A DNA stretch of 64,000 nt from Lachnospiraceae bacterium (lineage in GTDB: Bacteria; Bacillota; Clostridia; Lachnospirales; Lachnospiraceae), in NCBI GenBank assembly GCA_016286555.1, contig JAEETA010000009.1, positions 1 through 64,000 on the forward strand, read 5' to 3'. Both the position numbers and the translations under genes were made by a program. The notes beneath the pieces were generated by a model. It saw nothing but the letters and a program-made list of their open reading frames with translations, made no database searches and was not told the DNA's origin. Position 1 is the stretch's first letter, and every line of letters begins with the position of its first letter. Shown piece by piece: positions 758-4,416 of this stretch.

Positions 758-797
758 GTATATTGTGGAAGAGAAATAACATTGGAATATATTGGAC

Positions 798-949
798 GCC
801 CGGTCCCACCATATACTCGGGTTCGGACACGCTTCCGCTTACGGTTTTGACACGTAGCGGACGCTAAGCTCGCCACGAGCCTGACGGCTCTACCTCGCTA
901 AGCGCCGACGGCAAAACATAGTCCTCACCCGGGTTATGGTGTCCCGGGC
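798..949 (+). ncRNA. structured intergenic repeat, copy 1 (RNA element or palindromic mini-element)
   Basis: This 152-base element can fold into nested stems: 798-803 with 944-949, 807-813 with 935-941, 818-822 with 927-931, and two inner hairpins (835-839 with 856-860, 877-881 with 886-890). It shares two exact 20-base blocks (822-841 and 909-928) with copy 2 at 3945-4127. Between copies the outer and inner stems change at both partners so that pairing is kept. I do not recognise the family. The short open frames across it look accidental. The 653-985 gap holds otherwise only the two divergent promoters and a ribosome site. Confidence 0.6.
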
Positions 950-985
950 TGATGCTACAATAAATTCAAAGTCAGGAATTCCGAC

Positions 986-1867
986 ATGATTGATTATACC
1001 TCTCTGAATCACTACCTCAAAACCACCTTCGGCTGTAAGGTATATAAGATTGCTTTGAACGCAGGCTTCACCTGCCCCAACCGTGACGGTAAGCTGGGTA
1101 CCGGAGGCTGCATCTTTTGCTCCGGTACGGGAAGCGGAGACTTCGCGGAAGATCCGGAACGGAGCATCACTGAGCAGATCGAAGCAGGGAAGCGGAGAGT
1201 GGCATCCAAAGCGGGAGAGGGGAAGTTCATCGCTTACTTCCAGGCATTCACCAACACCTATGCCCCCATAGAACGGCTGAAAGCCCTATACGAAGAAGCT
1301 CTGGCTCATCCGGATGTGGTGGCCCTCTCCATTGCCACCAGACCGGACTGCCTCCCGGAGGAGGTTCTGAATCTACTGGAAGCCTGCAACCGGATCAAAC
1401 CCATCTGGGTGGAGCTGGGACTTCAGACCATCCATGAAAACTCCGCAAAATACATACGTCGTGGGTATACCCTGGATGTTTATGACGAAGCCGTCAGGAA
1501 TCTGAAAAAAAGAAACCTGAATGTCATTACCCACGTGATCCTGGGGCTCCCGGGGGAGACAAATGCCGATATAGAGGCAACCGTACGCTATGTGTGTGAC
1601 CATGGCACCGACGGTATCAAGCTGCAGCTCCTTCACATCCTGAAGGGAACGGATCTGGCAGAAGAGTACCTGGCCGGAAGAGTGCCTGTGATGGCAGAAG
1701 AGGAGTATGTAGCCCTCATCACTCATCTCCTGCGGATCATTCCAAGGAATGTGGTGATCCACCGGATGACCGGGGATGGTGCCAAGAAAGATCTCCTGGC
1801 GCCTCTTTGGAGCGCTGACAAAAAACATGTACTGAATGCCCTGCAAAATGCTATCCGGGAGGGCTGA
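986..1867 (+). CDS. radical SAM protein, TIGR01212 (YhcC-like) family
   Basis: The protein has 293 residues, the normal size of this Elp3-related radical SAM family. The iron-sulfur cysteines are in the N-terminal stretch FTCPNRDG...GGCIFC (about residues 29-49), the spacing typical of TIGR01212 rather than the plain CxxxCxxC. ELGLQT and ITHVILGLPGET are conserved barrel strands. The substrate of the family is not established to my knowledge. The start is the ATG at 986 behind a modest AGGA at 973-976. It is the first gene of a plus-strand trio with the AI-2E-type permease and dtd. Its probable leader contains the structured repeat. Confidence 0.88.
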   Translation: MIDYTSLNHYLKTTFGCKVYKIALNAGFTCPNRDGKLGTGGCIFCSGTGSGDFAEDPERSITEQIEAGKRRVASKAGEGKFIAYFQAFTNTYAPIERLKALYEEALAHPDVVALSIATRPDCLPEEVLNLLEACNRIKPIWVELGLQTIHENSAKYIRRGYTLDVYDEAVRNLKKRNLNVITHVILGLPGETNADIEATVRYVCDHGTDGIKLQLLHILKGTDLAEEYLAGRVPVMAEEEYVALITHLLRIIPRNVVIHRMTGDGAKKDLLAPLWSADKKHVLNALQNAIREG

Positions 1868-1934
1868 ATCCCTAAGGATTTCTATACAATCCGGCATATA
1901 TCTGATATGATGGGCAGGGAATAAGGAAACCTGA

Positions 1935-3467
1935 ATGGAGATGACCATGAGAGAAATGGACAAACCGCAAGTGGATCAGGAAAACGAAAGAGAATCAATC
2001 CTTCAAAACAAGCCGGACATTGACGAAATGCTGGAGGATTCCGATCAGGCGGAAGCGGTGATCGAAAGCGCGAATGCTACAGAGGAAACCGTAGCGGATC
2101 CTGCACAGGCCACAGAAGAGACCGGAGGCAGAAAGCGGACGGTGATCATCTGGAATCAGAATTTTATCCAGGTAGGTCTGATCCTTCTGTTCTGTTCCAT
2201 GCTGGTGCTTCTGTTCTATTACCTTTTGTTCCACACCGATGCACTTAAGCAGAACTTTGCCCATTTGAACAGGATCCTGCTACCCGTTCTGGTAGGCATC
2301 GCCCTGGCCTATGTCATGACGCCGCTTCTCAATGCCATCGAACGCAGGATTTTAAAGCCCCTCTATTATCAGAAGCTGAAGAGAAAGGAAACAGACCGCT
2401 CCGGCAGAGTGATCCGCTATCTTTCCGTAACCGCAACCTGTACGTTGTTCATCCTTGCGCTGTGGCTGGTCCTCAAAATGCTGATCTCCGGCATCGTTCC
2501 TTCCGTCGGCAACCTGATCTCCAATTTTGACGTATATACCAGCAATGCCATCAAATGGGCCAATTCCATCTCCTTTGAGGATCCGGATGTCAATGCCTAT
2601 CTGACCCTTGCCATCGATTCTGTCTCCGAGAGCATCTCAGAATGGTTTAATACCGATATCTTCAGCAAATCCACTACAATCCTGAAGAACTTGTCCCTGG
2701 GCATGATGTCCTTCGGAAAAAAACTTTTGGATTTTGTTGTAGGCTTCATCATTTCCGTCTACCTGCTGAACAGCAAGGAAGTGCTGGTAGGGCGCTTTAA
2801 AAAGATCATCTATGCCGCTTTGTCCAGGAAAAAGGCAAACGATGTGGTGGATGCTCTCTGGTATACTCACCAGACCTTCAGCGGCTTCCTTACCGGAAAA
2901 TTCGTGGATTCCGTCATCATCGGCCTCCTGTGTTTCATCGGGACCACATTGATGCAGACTCCCTATGCAGCCCTGGTAAGCCTTATCATCGGCATCACCA
3001 ATATGATTCCCTTTTTCGGCCCTTACATCGGTGCTATCCCTACGACGCTCCTGATCTTTATGGTGAACCCTTCCCATCCGCTGCCGGCATTGTACTTCCT
3101 GATCTTTATCATCCTGCTGCAGCAGCTGGACGGCAATGTGATCGGTCCTAAGATCCTGGGCAAGAGCACCGGTCTGGAGGGATTCTGGGTGATCTTTGCC
3201 ATTACCCTGTTCGGCGGTATCTGGGGGCTCTTTGGCATGATCGTAGGCGTTCCGTTCTTTGCCGTACTGTATAACGGCATCAGAGTCACCATCAACGGTA
3301 AACTGGCAAAAAAAGGATATACCAACGACACAAAACAATATATGAATGCCATTCGCGTAGATGAGGACGGAATCGTCATCCAAAAACCGGAAGCAGAACC
3401 GGAAAAGATCCGTCCTTTTTCCAGAAAAACAAAAAAAACGATAATCAAAAAGGATAAAACATCATGA
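1935..3467 (+). CDS. AI-2E family transporter (PerM/YtvI-like membrane protein)
   Basis: This is a 510-residue integral membrane protein. Residues 1-65 are a soluble, glutamate-rich N-terminal tail. Several hydrophobic spans follow, arranged as in the PF01594 family: two or three near residues 75-185, then a soluble middle, then a helical bundle from about 265 to 440. [14 protein letters not shown] and [19 protein letters not shown] are family hallmarks. Members have been linked to autoinducer-2 export or Na+/H+ antiport, so the substrate is open. AAGGA precedes the ATG at 1935, and a second in-frame ATG at 1947 is possible. The last codons overlap dtd by four bases, indicating translational coupling. 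Confidence 0.88.
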
Positions 3468-3931
3468 GATTTGTAATTCAGCGCGTTGACAGGGCCTCTG
3501 TGCGGATCCTTCCGGAAGAGGGACAACCCTACGAGAACGGTAAGATCGGAAAAGGATTTCTGGTCCTGATCGGAGTAGAAGAGGCAGACAACGAAAAAAT
3601 CGCAGATGCCATGGTGCGAAAGCTCCTTGGCATGCGGATCTTCCCGGATGAAAACGGCAAAACGAACCTGGATCTGGCTGCAGTAAACGGGGAACTGCTT
3701 TTGATCAGTCAGTTTACCCTGTATGCAGATTGTCGCAAGGGGAATCGACCCAGCTTTACAAACGCCGCCGGCGCTGAGCAGGCTAACGCATTATATGAAT
3801 ATGTGGTTGCTCAGTGCAGAGCCAGTGTGGCTCATGTGGATACGGGCGTATTTGGAGAACATATGGAGGTGGATCTGGTCAATAACGGACCGTTTACCAT
3901 TGTGCTGGATTCCCGTGATTTAAGTATATAG
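3464..3931 (+). CDS. dtd: D-aminoacyl-tRNA deacylase
   Basis: This 155-residue cytosolic enzyme hydrolyses D-amino acids (and glycine) mischarged on tRNA. The sequence is full length. It begins [13 protein letters not shown], contains the [11 protein letters not shown] active-site segment near residue 80 and ends with the NxGPxT motif ([11 protein letters not shown]). The ATGA overlap with the upstream permease gene supports one operon. The second structured repeat starts within 15 bases of the stop codon, so it would be in the 3' untranslated region of this transcript. Confidence 0.96.
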
Positions 3932-3944
3932 AGGAACCCTTACA

Positions 3945-4127
3945 GGGCTCCCGTGGTCCATATATCCGTGTTCGGACACGCTTCCGCTTAGTGTGTCCGT
4001 ATATGTGCTAGCATATTCGGACATGACACAGCAGCGGTACATAAACTCACCGTGCGCTTGTAGCGCCGGTTCGTTAAGTACCGGCGGCAAAACATAGTCC
4101 TCACACGAATTATGGACCCGGTCGCCC
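3945..4127 (+). ncRNA. structured intergenic repeat, copy 2
   Basis: This is the second copy of the element at 798-949, in the same orientation. The conserved blocks are 3971-3990 and 4085-4104. Stems: 3945-3948 with 4124-4127, 3956-3962 with 4111-4117, 3967-3971 with 4103-4107, 3984-3988 with 4033-4037, 4054-4058 with 4062-4066. The inner hairpin at 3984-4037 is enlarged by an extra stem-loop (about 3993-4023) absent from copy 1, explaining the longer size. It lies just after dtd on the plus strand. Function unknown. Confidence 0.6.
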
Positions 4128-4236: not shown

Positions 4237-4295
4237 ATAGTTTAACGAATCAGTTGGAATGCATTTTAATGTATTCCAACTATTCGTTAAACTAT
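4237..4295 (+). repeat. long AT-rich inverted repeat (hairpin)
   Basis: A 14-base perfect arm (4237-4250, ATAGTTTAACGAAT) pairs with 4282-4295. The stem continues inward by about 13 further pairs after a single bulged C and with one G-T pair, leaving a tiny loop. On the plus strand the sequence CCTTTT follows, so it could act as a weak terminator for the dtd transcript. The AT content is unlike the neighbouring genes. Confidence 0.7.
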
Positions 4296-4385: not shown

Positions 4386-4416
4386 GAAAAAAGCAGCCAA
4401 AAACGGCTGCTTTTTT
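4386..4416 (-). terminator. bidirectional rho-independent terminator after the chemotaxis receptor
   Basis: The stem GCAGCC/GGCTGC (4393-4410) is flanked by six A residues on one side and six T residues on the other, so it can work on both strands. It lies 45 bases after the receptor stop codon. Confidence 0.9.

Follow-up and report, generated by a model that had tools for sequence, protein, structure and literature searches.

The window analysed here, meaning the whole 64,000-nucleotide stretch at positions 1 to 64,000 of contig JAEETA010000009.1 of the Lachnospiraceae bacterium assembly GCA_016286555.1 (genome G000), carries near its start two copies of a folded intergenic repeat belonging to an apparently uncatalogued element family. 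The surrounding genes, named from their Pfam domains, encode a tyrosine recombinase with phage-integrase and SAM-like domains, truncated by the window start, a radical SAM protein, an AI-2E family transporter, a D-Tyr-tRNA deacylase and a chemotaxis receptor, none of which needs to be linked to the element. The initial annotation had described the two copies as flanking a three-gene group, an arrangement that proves incidental, as another genome, G010, possesses an orthologue of copy 1 and only one arm of copy 2 at the corresponding place.

Both copies lie where the initial annotation had located them, and its description of their sequences holds. Block 1, TTCGGACACGCTTCCGCTTA, is identical at 822-841 (copy 1) and 3971-3990 (copy 2), and block 2, GGCAAAACATAGTCCTCA, is identical at 910-927 and 4086-4103. 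When up to three mismatches are allowed, chance would yield 0.00 and 0.04 matches to the two blocks, respectively (18 of the 20 bases of block 2 were used for the search). All five of the compensated base pairs proposed earlier are present in the sequences of the two copies. In the outer stem, C807-G941 and A808-T940 of copy 1 are replaced by G3956-C4117 and T3957-A4116 in copy 2, and G820-C929 is replaced by T3969-A4105; the other two double changes convert the apical stem, paired by eye, from GAGCC/GGCTC to GCGCT/AGCGC. The hairpin said to be extended in copy 2 and not in copy 1 is also real. Each copy folds better than 200 of 200 shuffled sequences, both as plus-strand RNA (z-scores of -4.8 for copy 1 and -6.1 for copy 2) and as minus-strand DNA (-4.1 and -6.2, respectively).

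The modelled fold of the element is a three-way junction, which consists of a sequence-free outer stem (P1), a GNRA mini-hairpin (H1) and a long arm with fixed internal loops (Table 1); the whole would span roughly 150-240 bp, with both ends inferred. On the minus strand, the arm contains a U-U opposition in all 52 sequences of the curated alignment, tandem G-A and A-G oppositions, each in 50 of 52, and a CU bulge in 50 of 52. In a larger set, the bulge reads AG on the plus strand in 158 of 175 elements and the TC/TC positions are kept in 172 and 178 of 186, while the A-A count of that set is fixed by the search anchor and has no evidential value. These fixed departures from pairing belong to the fold. 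Read on the minus strand, the loop of the mini-hairpin is of the GNRA type in 182 of 204 elements (206 were taken, two of which gave no hairpin), with GAGA (82), GAAA (43), GGGA (28), GGAA (16), GCGA (7) and GCAA (6) as the loop types, and the apical loop of the arm is GA-rich. At the feet, CAG- and GCGT/CGTC-type tetramers are enriched across the family: of 205 elements, 82 have [CG]CGT[CTA] in the flank 3' of the folded strand and 105 have CAG[CG] in the 5' flank, while 56 possess both motifs and 74 neither. At L371 and L376, additional hairpins appear to have been inserted, in either the outer stem or the mini-hairpin/P3 region, which suggests that the fold tolerates internal insertions.

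Table 1. Positions of the two element copies and of their structural parts in the window.
Feature	Position	Strand	Basis or remark
Copy 1 of the element	795..951	minus	R1/R2 model matches 808-940; exact ends inferred
Copy 1, folded strand	951 to 795; 5' CAG foot 951-949, 3' CGTC foot 798-795	minus	
Copy 1, outer stem P1, 3' arm	798..822	minus	pairs with 927-949; sequence-free; from folds
Copy 1, outer stem P1, 5' arm	927..949	minus	same folds as 3' arm
Copy 1, compensated pairs of P1	two in 807-813/935-941, one in 818-822/927-931		
Copy 1, inner P1, GGAC/GTCC	825..828 with 921-924	minus	family helix 3, 95.7% paired
Copy 1, mini-hairpin H1, GC-GGAA-GC, GNRA tetraloop	831..838	minus	family helix 6, 96.2% paired
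Copy 1, long arm	844..917	minus	family structure and counts
Copy 1, long arm, P3	844-849/912-917	minus	
Copy 1, long arm, CGY/RCG	853-855/908-910; 2-nt bulge 856-857	minus	
Copy 1, long arm, CGG/CCG	858-860/905-907	minus	
Copy 1, long arm, U-U mismatch	866/900	minus	
Copy 1, long arm, tandem GA	870-871/895-896	minus	
Copy 1, apical hairpin	872-894	minus	
Copy 2 of the element	3945..4127	minus	folds and model matches; model core 3957-4116
Copy 2, mini-hairpin H1, GC-GGAA-GC	3980..3987	minus	sequence and family GNRA count
Copy 2, extra hairpin replacing the 5' partner of P3	about 3991..4029	minus	similar hairpin in two G010 copies (L033, L034)

Further analysis of the fold revealed strong covariation across about 200 copies, in line with the selection on folding that had been suspected from the two window copies. 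Three arm pairs vary freely, and all eight of their Watson-Crick combinations are common (174 of 187 elements), which indicates that the changes happened many times; only 12 of 561 cells at these pairs are not Watson-Crick, in a set of 187 out of 200 elements that passed a filter counting paired positions and thus leaning towards pairing. In the curated structure of 52 sequences, 84.8% of the cells are paired, compared to 65.2% after shuffling and at most 42.8% when the structure was slid along the alignment. The covariation score is 0.507 against 0.182 for shuffled sequences, and 464 cells carry double changes against a shuffled mean of 180.5. None of 500 shuffles reached the observed pairing, covariation score or double-change value, in statistics that ignore the relatedness of the sequences.

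A DNA search of the window's genome located copies at four further places (two on contig C70 and one each on C23 and C2), and reading the sequence beside the C23 copy added a fifth further copy; with covariance models, the genome has eight copies in total. A first covariance model (R1) was built from 16 copies, and a second (R2) was made on the opposite strand with the curated structure. R1 matches all 31 genomes of the genus, including that of the window, and 180 of 397 genomes drawn from the family, which represent 157 of 334 genera. R2 has matches in 72 of the 392 genomes sampled from the order, every one of them a member of this same family, and in 7 of the 398 sampled from the phylum, four of which belong to this family as well. 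Within the phylum sample, G1099 is the only genome from another family with strong full-length copies, and in G935 and G960, also of another family, the matches cover the arm only. At E ≤0.001, the models match 8 times in G000, 8 in G010, 25 in G012, 47 in G231 and 16 in G1099, although in G012, G231 and G1099 some of these are confined to the arm or truncated at the end of a contig. Scanning named genomes for the element pattern gave at least 119 stretches, 100 of which were covered by one follow-up search. Among 80 listed stretches, 40 are labelled Lachnospiraceae and 7 more Butyrivibrio, Lachnoclostridium, Blautia or [Clostridium] symbiosum; several entries repeat one genome, and the few other taxa may be misbinned. 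Judged from these labels, the element family resides mainly in Lachnospiraceae, with copies spread among many gut and rumen bacteria.

Solo arm hairpins of ~40-55 bases are present in G1099, G231, G012, G935 and G960. Of 15 loci examined as arm-only, L400, L402 and L403 are elements cut by a contig end and were left out of the count; L389, L390 and L393 have one larger repeat in common. In G935 (L397, L398), tandem arm-only hairpins with 74- and 86-base spacing stand directly behind gene stop codons.

Comparison with Rfam (4,227 families) gave no family match to the element in the whole window at the gathering threshold, and E-value searches of chosen element stretches likewise gave nothing over the element at gathering score, consistent with the earlier remark that it is not a known RNA family. 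The only match above threshold in those stretches is a SAM riboswitch elsewhere in L071, a locus in which a sub-threshold match to ctRNA_pND324 (1653-1724, 39.2 of 45 bits) adjoins the element. The full element pattern has no match in the viral_contigs collection, and neither copy 1 nor one solo arm matched plasmid and phage sequences; a phage or plasmid origin was accordingly rejected, on the absence of the full pattern and of a match to copy 1. The arm-only pattern has four matches in viral_contigs, three of which are in coding sequence and look like chance; the fourth (L407 9310-9355, IMGVR_UViG_2588253902_000001) looks like a real arm-like hairpin. No description of the element was found in the open-licence literature searched, most subscription journals being outside that scope, and this silence is weak evidence of novelty.

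Comparison of related genomes supports the earlier suggestion of a mobile mini-element, as copies occupy sites in one species that are empty in its relatives. At one G012 site the element is absent in three aligned relatives, and the stretches of two more (G005 and G008) have no model match; at a second G012 site it is absent in four aligned relatives. For two G010 copies (L031, L034), the corresponding G000 stretches are too different to give a clean empty site. The conserved cores also match across sites. The top score in G012 is shared by five copies from different loci, and their cores agree. The core of copy 1 (822-927) comprises 106 bases identical to the core of L028, another G010 locus with a different outer stem; compared with its true G010 orthologue, L026, the longest shared run of copy 1 is 31 bases. 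In a doublet that occupies the same site on C23 and C123, the outer arms are 95 and 97.5% identical and the cores 73%, while L004 and L032, at different sites, have cores 92% and arms 70% identical. Since cores match across sites and arms stay with their site, cores can move between outer stems, most simply through gene conversion. Several hairpins have partial tandem duplications directly adjoining their foot, on either side, a pattern to be expected of a hairpin that forms in DNA and interferes with replication. Retroposition, which would leave 5'-truncated copies, was considered for the extra RNA-3' parts noticed by eye in L370, L379 and L380, and rejected because L040, L076 and L094 have extra RNA-5' parts, so that truncation is not one-sided.

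The copies are intergenic and closer to gene ends than to gene starts. Gene calls made with a home-made hexamer finder place 137 single copies between neighbours oriented (+,+) in 49 cases, (-,-) in 46, (+,-) in 23 and (-,+) in 19, and the two co-directional classes thus reveal no orientation bias relative to genes. Co-oriented genes on the label-upstream side of single copies end a median of 45 bases from the model match; a 3' untranslated region element was rejected, as better gene calling showed no orientation bias. Among neighbouring copies within 500 bp, 25 of 26 pairs are arranged in the same inverted way, their GNRA strands facing outwards; the remaining pair is -/-, and the reverse inversion was not seen. 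Some of these 26 pairs are orthologous doublets of different species left unmerged, so that not all are independent, and the count leaves out pairs seen only in the search listings of the genus, family and order. The members of doublets in G000 and G012 belong to different subfamilies, and those of L378 and L379 look near-identical. At L163 (3922-5128), two inverted copies sit in an apparent panB-panC-panD operon, one before and one after panC. No transposon-like open reading frame (ORF) was noticed at 11 loci read between or beside copies, and a composite transposon with the elements as its ends was rejected because, at the loci read, the genes between distant neighbours are host-like (for example panC and a carbonic anhydrase-like ORF, names that come from reading the translations). 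At the G012 loci L238, L239, L240, L242 and L252, the element is preceded by another repeat, of ~60 bases (GTATGGATTCGCTACGTCTCCGCG...), which ends where the element begins. In the window, a separate long inverted repeat (4237-4295, GTTTAACGAATcagTTGGAATGCATT...) lies ~110 bases from copy 2 and is present in G010 too, and a terminator-like hairpin flanked by A and T runs (4387-4416) lies between dtd and the chemotaxis receptor gene.

An element that folds with covariation, is dispersed in many copies, is missing from the same sites in relatives and carries cores that match across sites is best described, in our moderately confident view, as a non-autonomous intergenic mobile repeat that resembles repetitive extragenic palindromes (REPs) and miniature inverted-repeat transposable elements (MITEs), with the minus strand folded and moved as single-stranded DNA (ssDNA) by a trans-acting enzyme. 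The folded strand would be the substrate of this enzyme, and would probably be ssDNA exposed in replication, as has been proposed for REP/REPIN, IS200/IS605 and attC. In such a scheme, the enzyme may read the junction and the arm in detail, while only the shape of the outer stem would matter, which we propose as the reason why its sequence is free yet compensated; gene conversion between copies might then swap cores between outer stems.

The element resembles REPs and REPINs in being dispersed, in forming inverted doublets and in its compensatory changes, but lacks the size, the fold and the transposase typical of them. Like them, it is intergenic, multi-copy, palindromic and non-autonomous, and its doublets are predominantly inverted. 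The parts of PMC3733652 and PMC3116915 consulted report inverted doublets as 93% of 430 in P. fluorescens, compensatory changes in the folded single strand of REPINs, CGTC repeats without a dedicated transposase, and REPs of ~20-60 bp with stems of 5-13 bp. Many element copies share with the CGTC class a CGT[CTA] motif at one foot; however, the tag stands at the 5' foot in REPs, as far as the same portions of these sources tell, and in the element it is the 3' foot of the folded strand that has CGTC. The size of REPs is approached only by the solo arm hairpins, as the element itself exceeds 100 bases and forms a three-way junction, complete with a GNRA mini-hairpin, fixed internal loops and a long outer stem of free sequence. 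Moreover, GTAG-class REPs flank their REP-associated tyrosine transposase (RAYT/Y1), and the element was not found at any of the 15 Y1 loci examined here. The main text of the 2013 REP paper has no mention of Firmicutes, Clostridi- or Lachno-.

MITEs are short, non-coding, dispersed elements with long inverted repeats, whose insertions are absent in relatives. The element agrees with this description in its short, non-coding and dispersed nature, its inverted repeats and its empty sites. Nevertheless, MITEs have conserved ends and a free middle, whereas the element has free ends and a conserved middle, shows no symmetric terminal repeat motif, and differs in its outer arms between subfamilies. 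The attC sites of integrons have R boxes at their base, cassette arrays and an IntI gene. None of these three was noticed near the element, although no search was aimed at attC features. According to the parts of PMC3053210 consulted, attC sites are palindromic and are bound in the form of their folded bottom strand, extrahelical bases playing an important part in recognition. The element shares the palindromic folded strand with extrahelical bases, but its conserved part is apical, and its copies are scattered as singles or inverted doublets. HEARO/OMEGA RNAs of IscB-type elements are encoded by dispersed, partly non-autonomous mobile elements and are structured. HEARO is presumably among the Rfam families searched, and the element differs from this group in having no Rfam match, no promoter signal and no transposon-like ORF at the 11 loci read.

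Several results weigh against a mobile repeat moved as ssDNA. No transposase was found for the element. Y1 transposases occur in 9 of the 31 genus genomes and were not found in the other 22, that of the window included, an absence that counts for little because the genomes are incomplete; none of 15 Y1 loci carries the element within ~1.5 kb on either side, and RAYT/REPIN mobilisation was therefore rejected as an association, not as a mechanism. A gene-direction bias, possible for a lagging-strand ssDNA element, was not seen. The two G012 sites have no clean target-site duplication, their flanks being too diverged. At the copy 2 site in G010, one arm is kept and ~193 bases from 3964 on are missing, which looks like a deletion at CATA microhomology rather than an excision, and the other half of the C23/C123 doublet provides no reciprocal exchange (core identity of L022b and L030, 75%). 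As for the fold, further pair types number 100 against 94.9 in shuffled sequences, and 34 of 500 shuffles do as well; pairing in the two outermost helices is only 52.6 and 61.4% across families, which differ in stem length; and the median of 36.5 pairs in the outer stem has no shuffle control.

The minus strand was taken as the folded strand because the GNRA loops can be read only there; the plus-strand direction given by the initial annotation is thus probably not that of the folded strand, and a plus-strand RNA was rejected on the same ground. A minus-strand transcript acting as structured non-coding RNA, carried by mobile or duplicated DNA (such as a guide, a protein-binding small RNA (sRNA) or the RNA of a non-autonomous RNA-guided element), is possible, and we consider it rather unlikely. 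GNRA loops and tandem GA are textbook RNA motifs, yet DNA, too, forms stable tandem GA and stable GNRA loops when these are closed by C-G. Besides these loops, whose six common types are all G[AGC]RA, an RNA would suit the tandem GA and U-U internal loops, the strong plus-strand RNA folding z-scores and the isolated mismatches of the outer stem, which on the GNRA strand comprise 124 G-T/G-U against 76 A-C, an RNA-like ratio obtained by complementing plus-strand counts. Functional RNA, however, tolerates G-U far more than A-C, as in a control of 30 SAM riboswitches of the same bacterial family (G-U:A-C of 32:7 in 983 cells). The same procedure, based on RNAalifold pairs, gave 28:55 in 1,553 cells for the GNRA strand of the element and 57:34 in 1,608 cells for the other strand. 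The 38 curated pairs gave 63:62 in 1,910 cells, which stands against the riboswitch control, and unrestricted folds of the plus strand contained 103 isolated G-T mismatches against 114 A-C.

Nor do the 201 flanks analysed have the features of an independent sRNA gene, namely its own promoter and an intrinsic terminator. TATAAT-like motifs number 123 against 119.5 expected and TTGACA-like motifs 67 against 75.2, promoter-like pairs number 22 upstream against 35 in the control flank, and runs of six T number 16 against 9.1 expected on the 3' side and 25 against 13.9 on the 5' side, a small excess on both sides. The lack of an Rfam family also counts against a structured RNA, as do the inverted doublets and the tandem partial copies at the hairpin foot, which are a behaviour of DNA repeats. 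Given that neither G-U over A-C nor promoters are in excess, and that orientation relative to genes is unbiased, folded DNA is favoured, and the selected folded single strand is more likely DNA than RNA, though not decisively.

Another possibility is an imperfect palindrome that is merely passive: template-switch (quasi-palindrome) correction in replication would maintain the complementarity of its arms, and the fold itself would not be under selection. The scarcity of non-Watson-Crick intermediates, the near equality of GT and AC overall and the tandem duplications at the foot are all compatible with replication acting on hairpins. This reading is nonetheless very unlikely, because such correction would erase the fixed U-U, tandem GA and bulge, and would preserve neither the GNRA loops nor a primary sequence conserved over 157 genera. 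Even less probable is an mRNA element acting in cis as a terminator, stabiliser or regulator at gene ends or in leaders, since, despite the frequent position of copies close behind stop codons, the two co-directional orientations are about equal, the slight excess of T runs at the 3' foot has its counterpart on the opposite side, and all contexts are occupied, including divergent ones (19 of 137) and those between pan genes. The cis-regulator of the initial annotation consequently has no support, nor has its placement of copy 1 in the leader of the radical SAM gene, from which the GNRA strand of copy 1 points away; for a stabiliser of mRNA ends, also suggested there, no specific support was found, and we keep it as a low-confidence reading.

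Returning to the ssDNA-moved mobile repeat, we file the element among the small non-autonomous palindromic repeats. Only tentatively would we go further and propose a new element class: an exchangeable folded cassette recognised as ssDNA, whose conserved junction core, with its GNRA mini-hairpin and mismatched arm, would move between and be swapped among palindromic sockets of free sequence, whose solo arm would persist as a REP-like repeat in other Bacillota, and which has one preferred inverted pairing.

In annotation, the element can pass for an sRNA, a leader or a terminator, and, as several copies stand at contig ends, it may break assemblies. The family also offers abundant natural covariation data with which folded DNA can be distinguished from folded RNA by the tolerance of wobble pairs. 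Altogether, almost half of the species sampled from a major family of gut bacteria carry this conserved and strongly covarying structure, and, if an enzyme does recognise it, this would be a new strand-specific mobile system that reads structure.

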